A DNA stretch of 64,000 bases, taken from NCBI RefSeq assembly GCF_003171515.1, contig NC_089393.1, forward strand, positions 2,542,001-2,606,000, read 5' to 3'. This stretch comes from Pyrenophora tritici-repentis (lineage: Eukaryota; Ascomycota; Dothideomycetes; Pleosporales; Pleosporaceae). The position numbers and the translations under genes are program-made. Below, piece after piece: positions 6,453 through 31,000 of this stretch (the stretch's first letter is position 1; the number at the start of each line of letters is the position of its first letter). The notes under the pieces were generated by a model. It was not told where the DNA came from. It saw only the letters and a list, made by a program, of their open reading frames with translations, and did no database searches.

Positions 6453-7433
6453 GTTGGCGAGGAAGGCACTCCATGGAGCCCGAGCACGTAGTTGTTGATA
6501 GTCGTTGCGCTGGGCCCATGTTTGGGCTGCAGTAGCCGTGTTGATCGGGGTCCCGCTTTCCTACGCGTCAATTCACGCTAGCCATAACCGATTCCATGAC
6601 GCAGGCAGCCGGTTGAACCACCACTACACTGGGTTTTGGTATCGCGCAAGTTGGTCATCACGGTGGTGGCGGGTGACATACCAGTATGTCAGGTATTTCA
6701 CGTCACCCGGATGACTACACTCTTTTCACTGCTTCAGCTTTCCTTGCAGTTCATCCTCACCACTCAACGTATCTGGCGTATACAGTGGCATTTTTACACC
6801 AGCATGTAAAGTATTTCATGTCACCCAGGTGGCTAAACTCTTTCTACTGTATCAGCTTCCCTTGCAAATCTTCCTCACTACTCATACTTCTACTCAGCGT
6901 ATCTGGCGTATATAGTGGCTGTTATACACTAGTATGTTAAGTATTTCATGCCACCCGGGCGACTACATTCTTTCCGTTGTATCAACTTTCCTTGCAAATC
7001 CTCCTGAATATATGTATTTCATGTGAAGTTTCCGCGAGTTGAAAAAGAGAAAGCTATAGATAGAGATCGATACAGGTTGACACCCTCCATGTCATATGCG
7101 AAATGCGGTAAAAGACGAGTTTTTTAGAGCTCGAGCTGCTAAGCCTGAGTTCTGGTCTACGATAAAGGTTTGGTACCAAAACAACACACACACACAACTA
7201 AACACCAATAGGCGCGAGCCCATTGGGAGCGACCCATGGGTCGCGAGGGCACTGAAAGCACCGCAATATATGTATACAATGAGTCAACTTACATACACTG
7301 TCGATACTACATCAAAGAACTGAGATGACATGGTAAGGAGCTTGATATGTGCCAGAACACGTTCACTGGATTTCTACTATACATTGTCCTGTCTACCACA
7401 CCAATGTATCCATCAGCGTCTCGTATGCACTAT
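6453..7433. other. Intergenic region dominated by MITE-derived repeats
   Basis: The left part should hold the GCP2 promoter. From about 6664 to 7000 it is occupied by repeated MITE ends (separate entry). The rest is AT-rich and includes a short CA tract near 7185-7196. No gene is supported. Confidence 0.55.
6664..7000 (-). mobile_element. Serial, degenerate copies of a small MITE (family shared with 26535, 36166 and 40217)
   Basis: The string GTATTTCA(T/C)G(T/C)CACCC recurs at about 6693, 6811 and 6941, spaced 118 and 130 bp apart. Each is followed by similar sequence (GACTACACTCTTT..., CTTTCCTTGCA...) and preceded by CGTATCTGGCGTATA. Read on the minus strand, this is the terminal repeat and internal TA-GGCGCCA region of the MITEs elsewhere in the window. 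At 6668-6710 two ends face each other (GCGGGTGACATACC ... GGTATTTCACGTCACCCG). No transposase is present. Confidence 0.65.
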
Positions 7434-9494: not shown

Positions 9495-12400
9495 TTAACC
9501 AAGCCCTGTGCCCCGTCTTTCCATGCCTGGTCGTCCGCCACTCACACTACCTCTATGTACTCTGCCAGCACCACCGTTACCGCATCCATGCATCATATCC
9601 AAATCGACCGGTGTGCCCGCCCCGAGCGCAAAGCCATACGTCTCTGGTCCAGGCGCGAAAACGCCATCGTCGCCCAGACTGTGTTGTGGAGGAGGCTCAA
9701 CGTTGAAGGGCACAAAGTAACTACTCATTGGATCGAAGAAGTTATTAGTTGTGGCGTTTGGACCGAGGCCCATGGCTTCGAGGTTCCAGAAGGCGTTGTT
9801 GAAGTCGCTGGCTAGGTCGGGGAAGGGGGAGAGGTTGTTTGTGTGGGCCGAGTGGTCTAGTTGGTGGGCGTGTGGTACGTGCATCATTGAGGGCGAGGTG
9901 TTGAGGAGGGGAAGCCCGGAGTGTTGTTGGTTTTGGTGGTGTTGTGAAGCGAAGTCGGCGAGGAATTGTTGCGAGGAGGATTGGTGGTGTTGTTGTTGCT
10001 GTTGGGCGAAGAGCGTGTTTGGGTCGTAGCCGGCGGCGATGGCGGCGTCTATTGCGTCTTGCGAGGTCATGTTTAGGTGGTTCATTTGTTGTTGAGCTTG
10101 TAGTTGTGCGGTGCGGGATTGCTGTGAATGGCTGTTGTGGCGTTGCAATCGTGCTGGATCCGTATGGCTCGACGACGATATATCGGGTTTCGACACTGAT
10201 TTCGACTTGTTCTTGCGAGCGTGTTTGCGCTGTTGGTCTGATTTGGACGGCGGAGATAGCGAGGCGAAGAATTCCTCTACACTTTGCAGATCACTCTTGT
10301 GCCCCAGAACCGCATCCGTGCCTGCCTCTTTTGGAACTCCTTCTGCTGCGTCCTCGTAGTCTGTTTTCGAGACCCCGTGAGGATACCTATCAAACCAGTC
10401 TCCATACTGGAAGATGCTACCCTTCTTCTGCTCACTTGCATTCGACCCTTGCAGTTGAGCGTCGGCGTGTTGTCGGTACAACTCCTTCAAGTTCTCGGCG
10501 ATATAGTGGAACATTCCCCAGTACTTCTTCATCTTTGTCAGGTATTTGAGATTGTATGCCAAATACTTTTTCGATTGCGCTTCCAGCTTTGGGTTCTTTG
10601 AAAATACGCCGTGAATATGTACGGTCGAAGAGAAGAAGGCGGAATATCCAGCGAATGGCGCAACGACGTTGTGATCCATGGATTCGTGGATAAGCATCGA
10701 TATCTGGTTCGCAGCATCGAGCGCTGAGCGGGCGGATTCTGTAAGGAAGTCGTGCGGCATGTCCTTTGGTGGTCTGCTGCCTGCTGTTGAAGGTAGGGCG
10801 AAGCGGTGCATGAAGAGCATGATTTGCTGGTATAGGATATGGAGGTACAGGAACGAGTTTGCGGTTTTGCCAACAGCGTGGCTCTTGAGGTTCTCGGGGC
10901 TGAACACCAGCATCTCAGGCAATGCTGCCTTGAAGTCCTTTGCCTCCTTCTTGATCGCGTGATATGTCGAGTTGGATGACCACATTGGTTCGTCTTCACG
11001 CTCTTTGCCGCCCAGGTTCATGTACTTGATTAGTTTGCCCCATGTGCAGACCAAACGTATCGTGTAAGCCGCAACGCCCATGTTTTCGCGCGGATCCGAC
11101 AGGTGCCCACTGTCAGGCGGAACTGGGTTTGGTACAGTGCCTTCTAGGCTCTCGGTCGGCGCAGGTATCTCGTGAACGTATAGATGTTCCTTGACTGGTA
11201 GTTGCACTTCGATATATTGTTCATGAACAAACAATGGCCGGTCAGTACCAGAAGAGTTGAAGCGGTCCATCAGGAAGCAGGACCACATTGTCCGCCGCCG
11301 TATCTCTCGGTCTGTAGCGCTCAGGGGTTTCCTGTCCTTTTCGCTGACCAGCGGGTCGTATTCGTTTTCTTTGTGCAGTTGCAGTGCGTATGCCATTCTC
11401 TGTGCCATGCCGCCAAACATCCAGCTCCGTCCGCCCTGGCATGTGCCGAATTCATGAAGACCAAGTAAGAGATAGACTATCAGAATGGTGATGTTGGGTG
11501 TATCGTATCGTTTCAGCGAGATTTCTCGCGCGCGTTCCGCCCAGTGATCGCCTCGTAGGAAACATGGCTCTGTCCGTAATTGGGGGTGTGTAGAGAAGCG
11601 TGCTGATATAGCGCACAGCGCTAATATTAGTACTGGCGGAACCTGGCCCGCTGCTAGCTTTCTAATGAAACTGGGCTTGTGGAGAAGCGGATAGCTTTGG
11701 CAGTACACAAAGTCAAAGTACACTTCAGTTAGATGCTCTTGAATTTCTTTTGAAGGCAGGCTCTCGGCGCCTTCGGTGAGCAGTTTGCTCTCGGCTGATT
11801 CCTTGGACCGTGATGTCGAGCCAGCAATGTCCGGGTCAGGAACCTTTGCCTTGGACCACTCATCGAGCTCGTTGCCGAATGCTTCTTCGGCTGGACGCTT
11901 CTTGTTCGTGGGCGTCTTGGGCGGGGCGCCGGGGATAGCGGGCTTAACAATGGACCTGCCCACATTTGCGACAGAAGGTAGGCTTTCCTTGGGAATGAGT
12001 TTGACAACGCGGTCTTCCATGCGTTTGAGTCTCTTGTCCAGCATGGCCATGTAGTCGGTCCGCGGGGCAGCCTTCCGTGTGGTGACTTTGTAGACGCATG
12101 GTATCCTGCTTCTCAGACAGTGTTTGCATGCGGGCTTCTCACCGGAGCAGCGGATCTTCTTCCTCCGACAGGCAATGCATGCCAGTGGTAGCCTTTTCCT
12201 CTCTTTGCCAGCCTTTGTCTTCATCTCGCTCCACAGTGGCGGGTCCTGGATGTCGTCCTTGCTCTTTTTTGACGTGGTCGAATGGCCGTCTGTGCCATCG
12301 TTCCCGCCGAGCTTCATAGCAAGGGCCGAGCCTTCACTCATGGTATCCCCGATGGCGAGCATGTCCATGGCAGGCGCACTCCCCGCTGGACTGGTATTGG

Positions 12401-12749
12401 ACCCATCAATTCCTGGGCTGGCACCAATGCTCAGCCGGTGTGGGAGGGCACTGGCGGCACTCATGGCCTCCTCACTCATGTTCCCCACGCTTCCTCGGTG
12501 GTCAGCATAGCCAGGCTCGATTTTTGGCTGGATGCCGTCAAAGTCGGAGCCAAAGCCTCGGTTCGGGGCAAAGGCCATGTCGAAGTCGGAGTAAGAGGCC
12601 ATCATGTTAGTAGGACTCATACTGTTGGAATTCGGAGAGGCGCGCAGGTCAGACAGGCCAAAGTCGTTCAAAAGCAGCGAGTCGTCGTTGTCGAAGCGCG
12701 CATGCGAGGATGTAGCCACGGAGGTAGCGTTTGCGCCGGAGTCGGCCAT
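9495..12749 (-). CDS. Zn2Cys6 binuclear-cluster transcription factor with fungal-specific TF domain
   Basis: A single 1084-aa open frame from the ATG at 12749. The DNA-binding cluster has Cys at about 191, 194, 201, 208, 211 and 218 (CX2CX6CX6CX2CX6C), preceded by KERKRLPLACIACRRKKIR. A short basic linker and coiled-coil segment follow (MLDKRLKRMEDRVVKL, near 235-250). The fungal-specific regulatory domain spans roughly 340-640 (YPLLHKPSF, CAISARFS, GLHEFGTCQGGRSWMFGGMA, RRRTMWSCFLMDRF). The C-terminal third is Gln/His/Asn-rich, with a run of Q near 930-945, as in activation domains. The N-terminal ~170 residues are Ser/Gly/Asp-rich. The target pathway cannot be read from sequence, and no biosynthetic cluster adjoins it. 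It is long for the family because of the disordered ends. Confidence 0.92.
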   Translation of the reverse strand: MADSGANATSVATSSHARFDNDDSLLLNDFGLSDLRASPNSNSMSPTNMMASYSDFDMAFAPNRGFGSDFDGIQPKIEPGYADHRGSVGNMSEEAMSAASALPHRLSIGASPGIDGSNTSPAGSAPAMDMLAIGDTMSEGSALAMKLGGNDGTDGHSTTSKKSKDDIQDPPLWSEMKTKAGKERKRLPLACIACRRKKIRCSGEKPACKHCLRSRIPCVYKVTTRKAAPRTDYMAMLDKRLKRMEDRVVKLIPKESLPSVANVGRSIVKPAIPGAPPKTPTNKKRPAEEAFGNELDEWSKAKVPDPDIAGSTSRSKESAESKLLTEGAESLPSKEIQEHLTEVYFDFVYCQSYPLLHKPSFIRKLAAGQVPPVLILALCAISARFSTHPQLRTEPCFLRGDHWAERAREISLKRYDTPNITILIVYLLLGLHEFGTCQGGRSWMFGGMAQRMAYALQLHKENEYDPLVSEKDRKPLSATDREIRRRTMWSCFLMDRFNSSGTDRPLFVHEQYIEVQLPVKEHLYVHEIPAPTESLEGTVPNPVPPDSGHLSDPRENMGVAAYTIRLVCTWGKLIKYMNLGGKEREDEPMWSSNSTYHAIKKEAKDFKAALPEMLVFSPENLKSHAVGKTANSFLYLHILYQQIMLFMHRFALPSTAGSRPPKDMPHDFLTESARSALDAANQISMLIHESMDHNVVAPFAGYSAFFSSTVHIHGVFSKNPKLEAQSKKYLAYNLKYLTKMKKYWGMFHYIAENLKELYRQHADAQLQGSNASEQKKGSIFQYGDWFDRYPHGVSKTDYEDAAEGVPKEAGTDAVLGHKSDLQSVEEFFASLSPPSKSDQQRKHARKNKSKSVSKPDISSSSHTDPARLQRHNSHSQQSRTAQLQAQQQMNHLNMTSQDAIDAAIAAGYDPNTLFAQQQQQHHQSSSQQFLADFASQHHQNQQHSGLPLLNTSPSMMHVPHAHQLDHSAHTNNLSPFPDLASDFNNAFWNLEAMGLGPNATTNNFFDPMSSYFVPFNVEPPPQHSLGDDGVFAPGPETYGFALGAGTPVDLDMMHGCGNGGAGRVHRGSVSGGRPGMERRGTGLG

Positions 12750-14324
12750 GGTGTCAGCGGCAGCGTCTATTCTGGTGGCGCGTTCCGGTAGGGCTGACGG
12801 CGACGTGCATCAAGTTGCAGCAGTTCTTACTACAAGTCATATGCGCGTGTACTCGAGGTCTCCAACCAACATGGCAGGCGGAATTCAGGCGTCGGACTTC
12901 CAGACGTTCGTGTGTGCTGTGCTGGACCGGAGCGCCGGCCGAACAAGTGGATGGTAAGCTCCGGATTCTCCACAGGATAGTCGCGGGCCTTGGTTCGAGG
13001 CCAGTGGGGCGCTAGTTGGTATATCAAAGCGTAGTGCAGGTGCGTATGTGGGGAGGAGGAGAAGAAGTGGAAGGGATGTATGTGAGCGTCAGCACGTGCA
13101 ACAAAGAGGAATTGCAGCAGCAGGATAAAGACAAATGGCGGCACACCAGCAATACAGCACAGGACCGCGCACCATGACGGTGGGTGATGTTATGAGGGCC
13201 GTCTACAGCTGGCTGCAGCGCGGCCTGTGTCTCCGCCCATAGTCTGGCAGCCATGTCCATGCGGTATGCACAGGGGACGGAAGCATAGCGATGTAATAGC
13301 GCCTACAGGATTCGCAAGCTTGCCTCCCGTCGAGGTCCGATTAAAGCTCCATCAAACTCACTGGCCCACTCAAGTCACTGGCCGCATCTTGGCCGATGCA
13401 AGCCACATAATCCTTCGCTCCCCCACATGGCTTAGAGAGAGCGCTGCTTAATCAGGCATCACAAAGCAGGAGTCGCCATGTCTATACAAGCCACTGGGTC
13501 CCTGTGGCTACCTCACCCAAGTACTGTGCCGTCATAGAAGCTGTTTCTGCGCATCGCGAGGCTGACTTGTTGTCGTCGACGTTGTGGCGGGGACCCCTTC
13601 TCCATCACAGCAACAGCGACAGCTTGTGTTTTGCGGGGCGCCCGCCTTGTCAAACATGCAGACGTTGGGCGCACACGAGGAATATATGAACTAGAATTGC
13701 GACCTGCACCCCAATACCGCCCATATTCGCCATCCTATGTTCCGATTCGACCGCCTGCAACACATCTCGCGGCCCCGCGAAGTAGGCGGCCCTGCTCCGC
13801 GCAACGGCGCGCCGGTCGCTTAAGCTTTGGTGCTACATGCTCCTCCCATGCTCTCGTTGAGTGCATCACGAGGCCAACGTTGATGATGGCGCTGGGACTT
13901 GGGCGAGTTACTCTCTGCAAGGACGCCCACGACCGGGGAAAAGCGTTTCACTCCAAGCCTGCGCAATCTCATACACAAGGCTGGGGGTGCGTCATTGATG
14001 TTTGTGACTGACCTGACGTCTGCCCGCCGCTCATCAGTCCAAACTTGGCTTCCAGAAAAGCACCGCTGCACGGCCCTTGTTCCACGTATCCAGAGCTTAT
14101 CCAGTCAGTCTCTCACTGTCGGTACTGATTACTGATAAATAAGTAATTCCATTTGTCGGCGCGAATCGGCCTCGCCGAAAGCCAGCCCTCTGGTCATCCA
14201 TCTGCATACGTCGTTCATCACCGCTTCTGCGCAGGAAGACGCCCTGCCTTTAGCCAAATATGCCTTCCGTCAACCTACTTTACACCACATTCCCTTTTAC
14301 CCCGCGTAAAAAAAGTAAAACAGT

Positions 14325-15070: not shown

Positions 15071-15542
15071 GGTATGCGAGATGAGGGTTTGTGAAGGTGT
15101 GGTTGTGGTGTATAATGTGTCATGGATGGTTTTATAGCGTGTATAGGGCTGGAGACAGTGGTGATGCTGTTTGTTTCACTGGGTAATGCTATATTGTGAA
15201 ATCCCTATACTACCTAGTGCATGAATGACATCGAGTTCCGGTGACAGTTTAGAGACGCGGATACACGAATACGGTACCAGGCTCAATCTAACTGATCAAT
15301 AGATCCTGGACCACGGATTGTTATCAAGGAGCGGTGTATAGTCAATACCAAATATCATTCAGCTTTTCCCCATCCACCACTTCTTCTCACTACCCAAAAC
15401 ATGCCACATTGGATGTCCCAACAAATCCAACAAAAGAGCGTAAAGCGCGCCAAAGCATCGCCAACGATAAACCAAACAACCATCTCACCCCCTCCTTACT
15501 CACCCAACCAAATCACCACCCTACTGCATTTTCTCCACCCCT

Positions 15543-16290
15543 TCACCACCACCCGCAGCAGAATAATGCCCGTACTCCGTATAAGGACTGCACGCCCCGA
15601 TCAGCAAACGTCGCCATACCCTGCCAAAGGGAAAAGAGAACATACTCGTAGATGTGATACTTGTCATCGTTGTCTGGGAGCGACTCGTGCGGTGCCTTGC
15701 GCTCTCCTGTATCAGAGGTAGAAGGCATGTCACGCTTCTGCATCATGGTACCGTCGTCGTTGTCGTCGTTGTCGCTATCCCCTTTTGTCATCATGGTGTC
15801 GTCGGCGTCACCGTTGTCCTTCATCATCTTCATCATCTCCTCGTGTGTCATCTTCATGTGGCGTCTTGCCATCATCTTATCCGTATCCATCTTGCCGCCT
15901 TCGTCATCCACAGCCTCAGGGTACGTCCCATGCGAATCGTAGCGAGAGTAACCGCGCTTCTTCATATTCGTTACGTCTTCCACGGAAGCACCAGGGTAGC
16001 AGCCATAATTGCTGTGAGGCGTGTATGTAGCCATCTTCGTCCGTTTGGCCACGCCTTGGTCCGTCTTTGCGTAGTTTCCGTAGTCTGTATAGTAGGCGCC
16101 ATATTCGGCGTACGTCTCTACTTTGGGCTGGACTGCGTCGTGTGCCATGTTCATGGCTTGGCCATCTGTTTGGGCGTGTTATGAGGTGGGTACACATTGT
16201 TTATGGTGGAGACGTACCTGTCATATCGTGTGGAAGTGGGACTGCGGCTGCAAAGCCGGCGAGGCTGATGAGCAGGGCTGCGGGATGCAT
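15543..16290 (-). CDS. Secreted Kex2-processed (KEP-like) putative RiPP precursor, Tyr/Asp/Met-rich
   Basis: Two exons, complement(16218..16290) and complement(15543..16165), joined over a 52-nt intron (GTACGT...CAG), give 231 aa. Exon 1 supplies a clean signal peptide (MHPAALLISLAGFAAAVPLP). The body has dibasic Kex2-type sites at about 65-66 (KR), 93-95 (KKR), 125-126 (RR) and 168-169 (KR). They delimit Tyr-rich segments: ETYAEYGAYYTDYGNYAKT (41-59), then TYTPHSNYGCYPGA (71-84) and GYSRYDSHGTYPEA (96-109). The last two align as G-[CT]-Y-P-[GE]-A followed by an acidic V-[ED]-D. Such Tyr-containing cores between KR sites are typical of ustiloxin/asperipin-type precursors. Residues 110-195 are extremely acidic and Met-rich. 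A divergent UstYa gene lies 1 kb away (17289), which supports the reading. Alternative: an ordinary secreted effector-like protein. Confidence 0.68.
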
Positions 16291-17288
16291 GGTGAGGGAC
16301 TATCGGATATGGGAAGTAAGAGATATCGGGAGTAGTCTGGACTGAGAGTAAAGGAGAAGTAGAAGCTGTGATATATGCCACTCCCACTACGCGACCCACC
16401 CTTTTGTAGACAGCGCTGAGAGGCGAGTATCAAACCCAATCATGGTACAGAAATCGATCATGGTGACGATTGCGTAAGGTTCCATCCGTATATACAATAT
16501 ATTGTGATCATTCGAATTCTCTTTTGTTGACTCCGGGAGTCACATATTGACCACCTTGCGGGAATAGTGATGTTGTTGCTTGAGGTCGTCCAGAGACGCA
16601 TTCAGTGTCGCGTATTTGACCGGAAGTTCTGTGGAAGCCACAGCTTAGATGCTCCACACGAGCGGGTGCTAAGTGTTGTCTCCGATGAGATCAACCATTG
16701 GCTTGGTGTTGAATTCCGTGAGAACAGCAAATCTGTACATCGTTACTGCGAAGACTATAAAGTGCACCCGGGCGGGACTGTCACAGTCGGCTTAGGCAAG
16801 TTTGCTCACTGCCGTCTCAATCCAGAAGTGGTGCGGGCTTCTGTGATGGATATGAGCGCGAACGAGTCAGAAAGCCGGTTCATGTTGACATTTGGATATC
16901 ACTATACAGGTTCCTCAATGGTGGTGTGATTGTGACTGGTCAGACAACAAGTACCCCCATAGACGTCGCTAGAGCAATTACTCTGCCAGTTGAGTGGTAT
17001 ACATGTTTTCTTGCACTACATGGCCAACGTGTCTGACATCTATGACAGCCATCATTGTGTCACAACTTGTCATGAATGGCTGGTCTTGTCGTACGGGGTA
17101 TTTATTCGTACTGTACGTCCTACCTGTGACGAGAAAGGGAACTGCCGACGGCAGGCACAGGGTTTTGACACTTTGGTTGGATGTAGTTTACTTCATCGTT
17201 CTTCTTCCCGCCGCGAAATCAGATCTGCTTGACTTTTGTCGCTTGTTCCTTCGACTTCGATCGTGCGGATTTGTGTGGAGGTCTCATC
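16291..17288. other. Shared divergent promoter of the KEP-like and UstYa genes
   Basis: 998 bp between the two start codons. On the minus side a TATA-like ATATAT lies about 80 nt upstream of the KEP-like ATG, followed by a CT-rich leader. A head-to-head layout with one shared regulatory region would allow co-expression. A 119-codon ORF lies inside (separate entry). Confidence 0.5.
16570..16929 (+). CDS. Uncertain ORF, 119 aa, between the KEP-like and UstYa genes
   Basis: From the ATG at 16570 the frame is open for 119 codons (MLLLEVVQRRIQCR...SSMVV). It has no signal peptide, and no family is recognised. The second half (YKVHPGGTVTVGLGKF, SESRFMLTFGYHYTG) reads like beta-strand protein sequence, so a small gene or a fragment of a lost cluster gene is possible. 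Its place in a probable shared promoter argues against it. Confidence 0.25.
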   Translation: MLLLEVVQRRIQCRVFDRKFCGSHSLDAPHERVLSVVSDEINHWLGVEFRENSKSVHRYCEDYKVHPGGTVTVGLGKFAHCRLNPEVVRASVMDMSANESESRFMLTFGYHYTGSSMVV

Positions 17289-18337
17289 ATGTTCAGCATC
17301 TTTCACCGTCGTTATGAGCACACCCGTTTACCCCAGCGCGACTCAGAAAGCCACGACAGTGATACCTTGCTACCATCCTCTTCTTCAACTTCACTTACTC
17401 TGAAACCTGCTGTTAGCCGTTCAAGTCGCGATGTTCAGGTAGCTGTAAGGACACTCATCCTGTGTACCATATTATATGTTGGCGCAGCAATATGGATGGC
17501 TTTCGGCATGAGTAAGATCACCTTGTTAGCCAATCCTGATGAATTCTGCATTCATCATATTTCACGATATTGTAAGTGGAAGAAGATGGATGTCAAATGC
17601 AATTACTAATAAGCTCAGCACCGGTTGTCAGAGACGTAAAGCCGAACTGGCATACACAGCAGTTCAACGGAAGCTTTTTACATCAAAACATATATCGACA
17701 ACCAGCGAGTCCAGAGGTCGACGCAGCGTGGGCGGCGCTCGGCGTGAACTGTAAGTAACGCCGACCTACAGAGGGCTTGATTGACTGGTTCTCCAGATCG
17801 AAGCGTGGTCGTACCCGAGAACGAAGCTGGACAAATGGGGCTGCGGCCTGACCAAGTCAAAGTGAGCCAAGAGTATGGTGGTGGATTCCCAGCGAATGTC
17901 GAAGGCCTGCATCACCTGCATTGTTTGGTAAGTACCAGGAACGGAATACCCACTGAATGTTGTTGATTGTTTTCAAGGACCTCCTCCGCAAGACGCTGCA
18001 TTGGAACTACGACTATTACTTGGCCAAAAAGCAAGGACCTTTCGTGAACAGCGAGTATATTGTGCGCGTGCACACGACACATTGCTTGGATATCTTGCGA
18101 CAAACTCTAATGTGCAACCCGGATATCGGTGTGTTCGGTCAAGTGTGGTGGCAAGCTGGAGGCGAGTCGGAGCCGACGCCCTTTGTCGACTTCAACTCAA
18201 AGCATCGATGCCGGGATTTCGAGGCCATACGCGAGTGGGCAGAGGCGCATCAGTTGCCACCTGAGGCGACAGTGAATATGAGTCGCTTCTACGAGAAGCC
18301 AAAACCAGGGGATTTCATCTCCCCAGAAATACCTTAG
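17289..18337 (+). CDS. UstYa-family (DUF3328) membrane oxidase
   Basis: Four exons, 17289..17571, 17619..17750, 17797..17927 and 17978..18337, with introns of 46-50 nt, give 301 aa. The N-terminal ~50 residues are cytosolic and polar. One transmembrane helix lies at about 53-75 (VRTLILCTILYVGAAIWMAF). The lumenal domain carries the family's conserved block (VKPNWHTQQFNGSFL, IYRQPASPEVDAAW) and both copies of the HxxHC motif, HHLHC at 177-181 and HTTHC at 214-218, so the putative metal site is intact. In ustiloxin, phomopsin and asperipin pathways such proteins oxidatively cyclise Tyr-containing core peptides in the secretory pathway. The gene points away from the KEP-like precursor (start at 16290). 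Without the second motif and the neighbour it could belong to the cyclochlorotine-type branch of the family, so the substrate stays an inference. Confidence 0.9.
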
Positions 18338-18506: not shown

Positions 18507-19091
18507 TCAGTTCTGTCGCGGCTTGACGACGCCATCGTGGACAATGTAGTAGACGACTGTGCTGTCCGAGTCTACTGTCGCTAATACGACACGCTTTGTT
18601 GTCCTCCAGGGATTGGCTGTGTCCCCTCCAGTATTTGACGAGCCTGTTGTAGGCGGGACCATACTGATAACATCGAACACGCCAGCTAGCTTACGCAGCG
18701 TCCACGTCTCGTTCAGTCTGGTAGGCAGTACCCATTCTCGTTCAGGCTCCGCTTTGACCTCCAGTCCACCTGCCTCGCCCGCAGCGCGCGCTTTCCTTTC
18801 GCGGTCGGCCTTCTTCAGCAACTCCACTTGCTCATCGGGATGAACGTATAAACGTTGCGGTGGTAGGCCAGAGACCAGCGGACGGGGTAGAAGGTCGTTG
18901 GTAGTCGGTGAGTGCGTGTGCACCTGCAGGTCCGACCAGTAGTGCTGATACTGGAGGTTGTGCAGTATCTGGCGGGCGAGCGATTGCTCATTCGGAAGGT
19001 GCGTGTTGCCTGCGGGCGCCGATACGAACGTCTGTAAATGCGCCGGCGCGATGGTATGTTTCAGGTCCGCTCTTATTGAGATTGCCGTCAT
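18507..19091 (-). CDS. sen15: tRNA-splicing endonuclease subunit Sen15
   Basis: A single exon of 194 aa. It has the Sen15 nuclease-like fold with the diagnostic C-terminus (VLATVDSDSTVVYYIVHDGVVKPRQN region, about 169-194). An N-terminal helix region (SLARQILHNLQYQHYWSDL, near 37-55) and PLVSGLPPQRLYVHPDEQV (about 71-89) are typical of fungal Sen15. With Sen2, Sen34 and Sen54 it forms the heterotetramer that cuts introns from pre-tRNAs. Sen15 is a structural, non-catalytic subunit, and no catalytic triad is expected here. Charged linker residues 95-115 are likely flexible. It ends about 170 bp from the 3' end of the UstYa gene, convergently. Confidence 0.88.
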   Translation of the reverse strand: MTAISIRADLKHTIAPAHLQTFVSAPAGNTHLPNEQSLARQILHNLQYQHYWSDLQVHTHSPTTNDLLPRPLVSGLPPQRLYVHPDEQVELLKKADRERKARAAGEAGGLEVKAEPEREWVLPTRLNETWTLRKLAGVFDVISMVPPTTGSSNTGGDTANPWRTTKRVVLATVDSDSTVVYYIVHDGVVKPRQN

Positions 19092-19389
19092 AGTGAAGGC
19101 TGGGCGACGACGAGCGCTGCAGGGCGATTGGTGGTGCGTGGCGTTGGGGTGAAGGAAGCTATGCGGTTGCGGAAGGAGCGAAGATCTTGAATGCCACCCC
19201 GCCAGTCATGGGAGCACTGCCGAGCAACCACGACCGCTGTGAATGGAAGGAGCAACGCGGCCCAGGCAACAAACAAGACTTCTCATTCTTAAGCCTCGTC
19301 CATTCTGATCTCTCCGACAACACTCAGCGATAAAGACTACTGAGTTTGGCCTTTTGAAATCACGCTACAATTACCAGAAATCCATCATC

Positions 19390-20035
19390 ATGCTCGCATC
19401 ACTCTCCATCTCCACACTGCTGCTTTTGGCTAGCGCTGCCGCCGCCCAGGACATCGTCGCGACCTCGCCTTTCGTCAGTCCCACGCCTACGGGCGAGGAA
19501 GCCTTCACTATCCAGACGTCAACACCCGCAGCGACGCCGGTGGATCCTTGGCTGTGCTATCAAGCATGCTTGCAGGAACCGTGCCCGTCATGTACGATCT
19601 TCATCAAACTCTCTTCTCGCATTGAGACTAACCTGACTAGGTCCGTCTGGTAGCATGATGAGCATCCTGCCAGTCTCGTCAGAGTCTGTCGTCACTGCCA
19701 TCGACCCCTCTCTCTCTACCGTGACGGGTATCATGTCAATTCCACCTCTCAAGACAGGAACTGTTGTCGTCTCCATCATCACCGACCCATCTCTTTCAAC
19801 CGTGACGGGCAACATGACGATTCCTCCTCTAGAGACGCCCGAGTCTTCTGATGGTCTCATGTCGATTCCCGCCGGCGAGACGCCAATTTCGACAGATTCG
19901 CCCACGACTGCGAGCAGTGTCTCGGCAACAAGGTCTGCACCGGCTCAGGTGACGACGAATGCCGCTGTGTTCATGACAAAGGACCTTGGTATTCCGTGCA
20001 TGGTTGCAGTTGCAGGTGCTCTCGCGCTTCTGTAG
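19390..20035 (+). CDS. Secreted, probably GPI-anchored Ser/Thr-rich protein
   Basis: Two exons, 19390..19591 and 19641..20035 (49-nt intron, GTACGA...CTAG), give 198 aa. The first in-frame ATG upstream (19354) would add 12 polar residues ahead of the signal peptide, so the ATG at 19390 is preferred (MLASLSISTLLLLASAAAA). A small Cys cluster follows (WLCYQACLQEPCPSC). Next come two copies of a DPSLSTVTG-x-M-[ST]-I-PPL repeat and a third partial copy, MSIPAGETP. The C-terminus ends in a small-residue site and hydrophobic tail (CMVAVAGALALL), as in GPI anchor signals. It is probably a cell-wall or surface mannoprotein. No known enzyme domain is seen. Confidence 0.75.
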
Positions 20036-27488: not shown

Positions 27489-28085
27489 TTATAGCGTGGC
27501 CATTCATCTTGGCTATGCACGTATGATATGGGCATTTGCGGCGTTTGGGTATGGGTGACTGGTCGCTCAGGAGCGTCTTCACCGACAGGCATACCAGTGG
27601 AATGGGTTACCGAAATAGACTTCCACAACATAGTACATGATACATATATTTACAAAGAAACATCAAGGAACTCACTGGCATGATTGTTCTGCACCGAACT
27701 TGTATGTAGTCATTTTGCTGCATGTACTGACTTCCTTTGCGCCTTTCTGTATTCTTCATCCTCGACTAGCATCCCTATCGAAGCGTTATCATAGCGATAC
27801 CACTTATGAAAGAAAAGCGCCTTGTACCGTAGAAAACAGGTGACGCCTAGTTCCGCCAACATGGCATATGCAAAATGACTGAAAGAAACACCAGTACCTC
27901 AGCGTACAGCTAGAAAGCTGCGGGAACATCCCATCAAATTAACCAGTCCGTAGATGGTATCCTTGCCAGTCCCGCTCCACAATATGACAAACACCATAGG
28001 GGCATAGAGCAGTAATAAAGAAAATGAAAGGGGTATCGGGAATTAGGGTATGTGTTGTCCATGTGGAAATACTCGGGCTGGGTTC
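27489..28085. other. Intergenic between converging genes
   Basis: 597 bp; it should hold both 3' UTRs. No gene or repeat was recognised. Confidence 0.45.
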
Positions 28086-31000
28086 TCATGCTTCCATGGC
28101 AGTGCTGTCGTTGCCCATGGGCTTGCCACTGTTGATGGACTCGTTGACGACTGTGTTGGGCTTGAAATTGTTCGTGGCCTCGACGATGATTGAGCTGCCG
28201 TTGTCTGTGGGCTTGACACTGTTGATGGCCTCGTCGGTGATTGAGCTGTCGTGAGCGCCGCGGATAGGTTCTTCAGCAGATTCAGACATATCAACGTCTT
28301 CTACATAAGCATGAAGCGGCTTATGAGCTTTCGAGCCGTCTCCAGTGTCACCGTGGTGTGAACCAACATCTCCATGGGCGATAGGCTCCAACTGAACAAC
28401 GATGCTGCTCAAAGCCTCTCTAACCTCATCCCTCAGCTGGCTCTCTTCTTCCGACAGCAAAGGTACGGGCTGGTCGCTCGCAACACCGCTCATAACACGC
28501 ATGTAGTCAGTGCCCATCCGCGCAGCGAACCACTCGGCCTTTTCCTCCATCGCTTCACGCAATTTTGTGCACATGTCATCCAGATGTTTTTCCACTTTAC
28601 TGGTTGCTTCATCAAACATTCCGGGGCTTTCTTGCTTAACGTGATCCTCCATGTGGTCTTTCATGCGCTTGTACGACCCTTTGCCATGCTCCATAGCGCA
28701 ATACTCGTAGGCATCATGCATAGCCATCGCAACGCACGGTGTAAAGTCACGGTTTGCCTCACGTTGGAGCTCATTCATCTGGTTGATGAGGTCCATTCCG
28801 AAATCCCGGAGGAACTGCTCGTAATGGGTGAGCTGTCCCTTCAAGATGGATATCTTAGCCAAGCTCATGCCACTATCATTGCCGCGTTCTTGGATGGCTT
28901 CGTGAAACTTGTGAAGAAGCTTTGCTGAGTTCTCGATATGCGTCTCGATCTTTCCGGGAAGGTGAGATTGAAAGGTCCGCTCCCAGGGTGTAGCAAGGCG
29001 TTTGAGGATCGGGTCAACACTGTACTTAGTCAGTATCACAGAGCTCGCGTGTTTGCTAGCAAGAAAGACGCACTGCACTAAAAAAAAGCAGAAAGTGATC
29101 TCACAAGCACTTACAGATCAGAGTTGAAATCACGATGACCAGCACTCATAGAGCGGTAGACACCGTCACGTCGGACGACGGCCTTGTATGTTGACCACGG
29201 GAGACCACCTTGATCTTTATAGCCCCAGGCGTACGCTGTCACGGGTGCAGCTTTCACAGCTTCGTTAATGAGTTCCGGGTACTTGTCGTTCACCTGAGTC
29301 TTTACACAATGTCGCATCTCTTTGAAGCAAGCGCGGACTGCTTCGTTCAAGCCCTTTGTTAACTCGCTCAACTTCCGCCTTAGGTAACTGATTCCTTCCC
29401 GCTTACTCTCCTCGGTCACTGGGACGCTAGTGCCATCATTTGACAACCATAGCTCAAACCTAGTCAAGATTTGGGCTAGGTTTGTCAAGAAAGCGCGGCT
29501 AATTCGGAGACGCCCAGCCTCTGTAAGCTTTCGGCAATGAGCCTGAAGTTGGGGAATTTCAGTTTCATCTGGAGAAACGAATCCTGGTACTGGTTCATCC
29601 TTCAGCATGCGTCCGCACATCTTTTGGTATGCGCGGCTGCTGACGCAAAAGACTGGCAAGGAATTGGCGACTTGAGCATAATCTCGAATCTCTATATCGG
29701 GATTGAACTGATCCTCGTCCTCCTCAGCAGCGTTTTCCTGGTCAATTTCTTTGATGCCGTCGGCAAAGTCTTGCTGGATAGCAGTCTTGGAATAGTAGTT
29801 GCGTCCAGCGATACAGATACGACTCGCCTTCGCCTTCACCTCGTCTTGTCTGGCATTCAGCTTACGAATCTCAGCCCTCAGTGCCTCTATCATCTTGTTG
29901 ATTTCGGTACCTTCGCTTCTAGCAGTCTTCTTCGTCTCTCTGAGGTCCTTGAGCTTGGATTTGACGTCCGTCTCAGTGAGTTTCTGTCGTGCCACCAGAA
30001 TCGTGACGTCATTGTCGTCGCCCTCACTAGACTTATCCTCATCAGAGGCGATGAACTCATCATCTGAATTTTCCTCAAAAGTCCTGGGCTTTTTTGATGG
30101 GCGTCGATCCAAGCTCGTATCCTTGCGCTTGCTAGTCTTAGGTAAAGGTGCAAAGACAGGTATGCCGTCCTCGATTTGCTCCTGGAAGTCTTCCCAAATC
30201 TCAATGTCTTTGGCTATTTCTGCTATAGCAAGCTTGTAGACCTGTCGGGTCTCCTTCAGATCCTCAATCTTGGCATGAACTTGGCGAATCTGCTCATCGC
30301 AATGCTCGTATCGCTTGTTCAACTCCGAGACTTCGTCCTCTAACCCAAGACTGTCACTAGCCTCTGTAACGGAAATATCATCTGTCTTTGAGCAGATAAA
30401 TGTCATATTCGAGAACCCGCCGTCGTATTTGAGTTGACGTTTGAACGAGTCACCGAGGAGGGTCTTGGCAGCCTTGTCGTCAACAGCACGGTTGATAGGA
30501 GCAACAATCCAGAGACCAGTACATTGCTTCAGGTAGCCCTGAGCAACAGCAGCTCGTGCAGCATTACTATCGTGGACGCCAGGAAGATCGACAATGACAG
30601 CGCCTGTCGACAGTGCCGGACTCTTTGTATATATCCTCACGACTTTGATCAACGGCCAGTACTCCATCACACGCGCTGCCTTTGGCACCGAGATCTTGGG
30701 CTTTTCTTTGTCTTTTTTGGACACCTTTTCTTTGCTGTCAACATATCGCTGTAGCTCCTGATGGAATCGCTCTGGTTGGGCGGCGCGTATGTATTTCACG
30801 GTCCCAAGAGTGTTGACGACAGACTGTTTGTTCACAAGTTCGGTTATAGTGTGCTTCCACAAAGCGTCCTTGGTGACGCAGGGATAGACCGCATGGAATT
30901 TCGCCCAAGCAACTCCCGCTTCCGAGTTAGGGTTCACTGCTTCGCGAGAAAGCGTACCGTTATCCGTGAATTCCTGCATGAGCACTGTAAGCTCCCGCTC

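Follow-up and report, generated by a model that had tools for sequence, protein, structure and literature searches.

The pathways to ustiloxin, phomopsin and asperipin-2a share UstYa-family oxidases and Kex2-processed precursors, and UstYa genes lying beside such precursors are a known kind of locus. Known ustiloxin-type precursors carry many near-identical repeats. We analysed a 64,000-nucleotide window (C4:2542001-2606000) of the 40.9-Mb, 41-contig genome of Pyrenophora tritici-repentis, in which an original prediction had placed a Tyr-rich precursor divergent to a UstYa oxidase. The window pair resembles the ustiloxin, phomopsin and asperipin-2a systems in its signal-like N terminus, dibasic sites, Tyr-containing repeats and adjoining UstYa gene. 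It differs from them in that the candidate precursor has five degenerate repeats, which are not distributed one per Kex2 piece, and a Met-rich acidic segment; unlike ustiloxin-type clusters, the window also has no tyrosinase, S41 or S8 match. Like fungal KEP (Kex2-processed repeat) proteins, the precursor looks secreted and combines four [KR]R sites with repeats, but by generic self-alignment its repeats score weakly, and their spacing is uneven. Particular to the window pair are its own core motif, its few degenerate repeats and its Met-rich acidic piece, which together make it somewhat unusual.

A UstYa-family oxidase gene divergent to a Tyr-rich repeat protein

The oxidase gene (17289..18337, + strand) encodes a 301-amino-acid UstYa-family (DUF3328, PF11807) protein in four exons (17289-17571, 17619-17750, 17797-17927 and 17978-18337), separated by three introns, each with a GTAAGT donor and an AG acceptor; an alternative form of 296 amino acids, with its second exon starting at 17634, is also possible. 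The protein scores 192.3 bits with the PF11807 profile (cut-off 25), covering profile positions 11-220 of 220, and carries HxxHC motifs at residues 177 (HHLHC) and 214 (HTTHC) together with a single hydrophobic, transmembrane-type segment by hydropathy (residues 51-74). The predicted DUF3328/UstYa protein with both HxxHC motifs and one transmembrane helix is thus borne out by profile, motifs and hydropathy alike. Its paralogs in the genome are distant, with 25-39% identity over matched segments. A sequence search of the PDB gave no meaningful match to the oxidase (best E 0.57), and no relative of it was found in viral contigs.

The start codons of the precursor gene (16290, - strand) and the oxidase gene (17289, + strand) lie 1.0 kb apart in divergent orientation, as had been proposed, and no Pfam-recognised gene separates them. 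The spacer between the two ATGs (16291..17288) contains one open reading frame (16531-16926, +) of 132 codons. Its codon score is positive at 19.7 bits, a level of at least 19 bits being reached by 25 of the 112 window ORFs of 100-180 codons, several of which lie opposite real genes; this ORF matches no Pfam family and lacks paralogs in the genome.

To the left the pair is flanked by a Zn2Cys6/Fungal_trans regulator (9498-12809, -) and to the right by Sen15 (18507-19091, -), beyond which come a putative secreted Ser/Thr-rich protein, a DUF2985 protein and ERG4/ERG24. These neighbours look like ordinary chromosomal genes rather than a tailoring cluster. Exon by exon, the window holds no match to PF00264, PF03572 or PF00082, in line with the predicted absence of tyrosinase and peptidase genes. 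No tailoring gene, and specifically no adjoining transporter or methyltransferase gene, was detected among the chosen ORFs that we scanned against Pfam (20 + 10, plus 3 proteins); with the scan limited to chosen ORFs, it could overlook a transporter or methyltransferase gene that is small and split into several exons.

Three other features of the window are recorded here in their own right. The Ser/Thr-rich protein just past Sen15 (19354-20035, +) contains an imperfect 27-residue repeat and, by eye, a hydrophobic, GPI-like C terminus. At 27937-28272 (-), near DUF7605 and dynamin-like GTPase genes, we observed 17-residue imperfect repeats (EAINSVKPTDNGSSIIVEATNNFKP... in a neighbouring frame). 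Positions 6762-7005 hold a 130-bp tandem duplication with 82% matches.

A second intron adds a fifth Tyr repeat

The precursor gene (15521..16290, -), defined by its gene model and codon score, encodes 219 amino acids in three exons (16290-16218, 16165-15646 and 15587-15521). Intron 1 spans 52 nt (16166..16217). Intron 2, of 58 nt (15588..15645), had been overlooked in the original prediction, so that the signal-like N terminus and intron 1 of that model stand but its 3' end does not: the one-intron form reads through intron 2 and terminates at 15543 in ...YEYVLFSLWQGMATFADRGVQSLYGVRALFCCGWW, instead of at 15521.

Intron 2 has a GTATGT donor, a CTGAT branch-like site with its A, by our own count, 13 nt before the intron end, and a CAG acceptor; across this window, donor, branch-site and acceptor strings at such spacing have a density of 0.22 per kb on each strand. 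Its removal gives the tail KYHIYDPYTEYGHYSAAGGG... and the protein end ...KYHIYDPYTEYGHYSAAGGGEGVEKMQ. This tail contains YTEYGHY, resembling the upstream YAEYGAY and YTDYGNY, and the spliced protein therefore carries five [YH]xx[YH]GxY copies. In local alignment the spliced tail scores 38 against repeat region A (equalled or exceeded in 32 of 2,000 shuffles) and 37 against region B (equalled or exceeded in 1 of 2,000), whereas the unspliced tail, compared with region A as the sole target, scores 18, a value equalled or exceeded in 520 of 2,000. The codon score of the tail is +4.3 bits when spliced versus -7.1 bits when unspliced. Given the likeness of the tail to the repeats, the codon scores and the rarity of such splice strings, we accepted intron 2.

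Anatomy of the candidate precursor

All precursor features lie on the - strand. The protein begins with a signal-peptide-like N terminus, MHPAALLISLAGFAAA (16243..16290), for which 11-residue hydropathy reaches its maximum of 2.28 at residue 7, the best value from residue 21 on being 0.11; by eye, cleavage would fall before VP. Repeats 1 and 2, YAEYGAY-YTDYGNY (residues 43 and 50; 16071..16112), are followed by a Kex2-type KR site (residues 65-66; 16041..16046). Repeat 3, HSNYGCY and then PGA (residue 75; 15996..16016), precedes a KKR site (residues 93-95, with [KR]R at 94-95; 15954..15962), and repeat 4, YDSHGTY and then PEA (residue 100; 15921..15941), precedes an RR site (residues 125-126; 15861..15866). 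A Met-rich acidic segment (residues 116-169; 15732..15893) ends in a further Kex2-type KR site (168-169), and repeat 5, YTEYGHY (residue 200; 15563..15583), lies in the corrected C-terminal exon. The signal peptide, KR/RR sites and shared G-[CT]-Y-P-[GE]-A motif of the original prediction are recovered here, with a hydrophobic signal-like segment, four [KR]R sites and the sequences GCYPGA and GTYPEA. Its description of few imperfect repeats and an acidic, Met-rich part also fits: there are five degenerate repeats, and the 54 residues of 116-169 include 13 Met and 14 Asp/Glu. In its Met/Asp-rich part the DNA contains two short 9-nt tandem repeats.

Cleavage at the dibasic sites would yield five pieces (17-66, 67-95, 96-126, 127-169 and 170-219), four of which hold repeats. 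Because repeats 1 and 2 share one piece and the piece 127-169 is repeat-free, there is no one-to-one alternation between cores and cuts; 127-169 has no Tyr, 10 Met and 12 acidic residues.

At E up to 0.01 the precursor had no Pfam match and at E up to 10 no paralog in its own genome, and a PDB sequence search gave nothing meaningful (best E 0.33). The one match in other genome contigs, 44% over residues 54-94 (L033), was judged to be chance: it shares the stretch SVEDVTNMKK and lies in a gene read as a bacterial efflux adaptor beside an outer-membrane-factor-like gene.

The repeats are visible through one short motif

Among shuffles of the mature precursor, 14 of 5,000 reached the observed count of four [KR]R sites, and two GxYP occurrences were matched by 11 of 5,000. 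None of 5,000 reached four Yxx[YH]GxY copies, an optimistic value because the motif was first spotted in the precursor sequence itself. The count over other ORFs is a better control for the motif than shuffles: of 2,742 ORFs that are 40 or more codons long, the precursor exon-2 ORF alone has at least two [YH]xx[YH]GxY copies. These ORFs come from 193,307 bases of the window and the 13 other UstYa regions, which is a biased background. In pairwise alignments of the repeat regions, the observed scores were reached in 3 (B-C), 67 (A-B), 37 (A-C) and 49 (C-tail) of 2,000 shuffles.

Generic measures were far less telling. With repeats each bounded by Kex2 sites as the test of cores, we found five repeats, two of them in one piece, and a marginal best ungapped self-alignment (score 42, equalled or exceeded in 22 of 300 shuffles). 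By similarity between dibasic-bounded pieces, the precursor shares ranks 10-12 of 416 ORFs. Such marginal scores indicate that the repeats are visible via a single short motif, outside which they are degenerate. A loose filter on dibasic sites and Tyr content is passed by 22 ORFs in the window and the 13 UstYa regions, and such a filter by itself therefore carries little weight. The YGxYP[..]A motif alone is likewise at chance level, since the corresponding DNA pattern TAYGGNNNNTAYCCNGRNGCN occurs at four places in the genome, the precursor being one, versus three for the reversed pattern. We rejected the frames at the other three places as precursor relatives, as by eye they have neither Tyr repeats nor dibasic-bounded repeats.

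UstYa regions, Kex2 and tailoring genes across the genome

PF11807 has 23 match segments in the genome, spread across 14 regions including the window. In all 14 regions we scanned the unspliced ORFs that reach 80 codons for internal repeats and considered the best 25 rows of this self-alignment scan, setting aside by eye the rows from L027, L029, L030, L031 and L032 as low-complexity or not recognisably secreted. Within these rows, 1 of the 13 other regions (L021) showed a clear secreted repeat protein encoded divergently from the neighbouring oxidase, and the other 12 showed no recognisable secreted repeat protein. The unspliced ORF of the window precursor is itself absent from the best 25 rows, so degenerate precursors elsewhere would escape the scan too.

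The L021 repeat protein (398 amino acids; L021:2154-3347, -) begins with MRFSAITLLALGATTTA, and its start lies about 1.5 kb from a PF11807 match (L021:4805-5398, +), the pair occupying G000 C6:2341653-2344897. It looks secreted and consists of many long near-identical repeats, PHHAGKAKKGGKKAQRDAEAQEFATQEEEDAHFADLHTR-like, with His/Lys/Gly-rich units. The L021 pair, a second candidate precursor/oxidase pair, is like the window pair in its divergent layout, but the sequences are unrelated. Since no Tyr is seen by eye in its repeats and a single [KR]R site occurs in its frame, L021 backs the layout and not the chemistry.

Two further regions, L022 (G000 C9:1011500-1021400) and L025 (G000 C4:2964000-2973999), each contain several HxxHC-bearing UstYa-like frames and are probable multi-UstYa clusters; neither is represented among the best 25 rows of the repeat scan.

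P_proprotein has one match in the genome (C8:628252-629526), in an 852-amino-acid frame that also holds the best S8 match, a combination expected of Kex2. A Kex2-type protease gene is thus present once. Genome-wide, tyrosinase, S41 and S8 gave 25, 6 and 16 matches, respectively. The tyrosinase matches at C7:223489-224254 and C15:13796-14561 have identical scores and spacing and represent a duplicated segment or a redundant contig.

Discussion

On balance, we favour the reading that this is a minimal two-gene UstYa/Kex2 RiPP locus making Tyr-cross-linked peptides, a judgement drawn from sequence. Several observations favour it: the PF11807 domain with its HxxHC motifs and transmembrane segment, the five repeats, the dibasic sites, exon 3, the Kex2-type gene elsewhere in the genome and the recurrence of the layout at L021. 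The fifth Tyr repeat gained from the corrected gene model strengthens it further. It is weakened by the generic repeat measures, the uneven arrangement of cores and cuts, the Tyr-free repeats and single [KR]R site of L021, the absence of a recognisable secreted repeat protein from the rows of the other 12 UstYa regions and the failure to find a tailoring gene beside the pair. The original proposal that the pair makes a modified peptide is upheld in part: the anatomy fits a Kex2-processed precursor beside a UstYa oxidase, but chance adjacency retains some probability.

Under this reading, the signal peptide suggested by the sequence would take the precursor into the secretory pathway, where the UstYa protein would sit as a single-pass membrane protein with its HxxHC domain on the lumenal side. 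By analogy with the family, and with the ustiloxin, phomopsin and asperipin-2a pathways in particular, the HxxHC domain would oxidise the side chains of YxxYGxY, the most likely outcome being links between Tyr residues of one repeat. Kex2 would cut after residues 66, 95, 126 and 169, releasing 17-66 with two repeats, 67-95, 96-126 and 170-219 with one each, and the Tyr-free, Met-rich 127-169. Export would then proceed by ordinary secretion, making a dedicated transporter unnecessary. What the sequence shows directly is the reading frames with their splice signals, the domain, the motifs, repeats and dibasic sites, the adjacency and a Kex2-type gene in the genome; the processing, the cross-linking and the joint action of the two genes we infer.

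The alternative that survives best is that the Tyr/Met-rich secreted protein, Kex2-processed or full-length, is an unmodified extracellular protein (a wall protein, metal binder or effector-like protein) and that its adjacency to the UstYa gene is due to chance. We consider this unlikely, though a serious contender, and judge a purely accidental adjacency of the two genes similarly doubtful. Degenerate repeats that are unremarkable in generic scans, a large acidic Met-rich region and cores out of step with cuts would all be natural in such a protein, and UstYa matches in as many as 14 genome regions make chance neighbours possible. Against this, Tyr is clustered in heptad-like repeats at a frequency unmatched by any of the 5,000 shuffles, the divergent layout recurs at L021 and the interval between the two genes is free of Pfam-recognised genes.

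The UstYa protein could also act in trans in some other pathway, with the precursor modified by a different enzyme or by none. The many PF11807 segments in the genome, and the presence of several HxxHC-bearing frames in some regions, would provide for such crosstalk, but the low identity of the oxidase to its paralogs, and the position of its candidate substrate as its neighbour across the divergent spacer, render this improbable.

Copper dependence is known for a DUF3328 relative, which brings in a more elaborate version of the two-gene idea that we regard as speculative and improbable. Here the acidic Met/His segment of the precursor (HMKMTHEEMMKMMK...DGTMMQKR) would bind copper in the secretory pathway and load the neighbouring UstYa enzyme if the family is copper-dependent, making the substrate self-equipped, such that two genes suffice; the five differing repeats would each give a different product. 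The 9-nt tandem repeats in this segment weaken the idea, since slippage alone could have grown it. Least probable is an artefactual gene model, or a decaying gene, for the precursor, given frames that remain intact through two canonical introns and a codon score for the whole spliced frame of +83 bits versus -160 and -100 bits in the other two, even though that score is partly a reflection of amino-acid composition.

If the two-gene RiPP reading is true, one oxidase and one secreted precursor would make up a complete cross-linked-peptide locus set among ordinary chromosomal genes, and cluster-based mining would overlook such two-gene loci. With its YxxYGxY unit and small gene number, the pair would offer a tractable case for learning which residues UstYa enzymes join.
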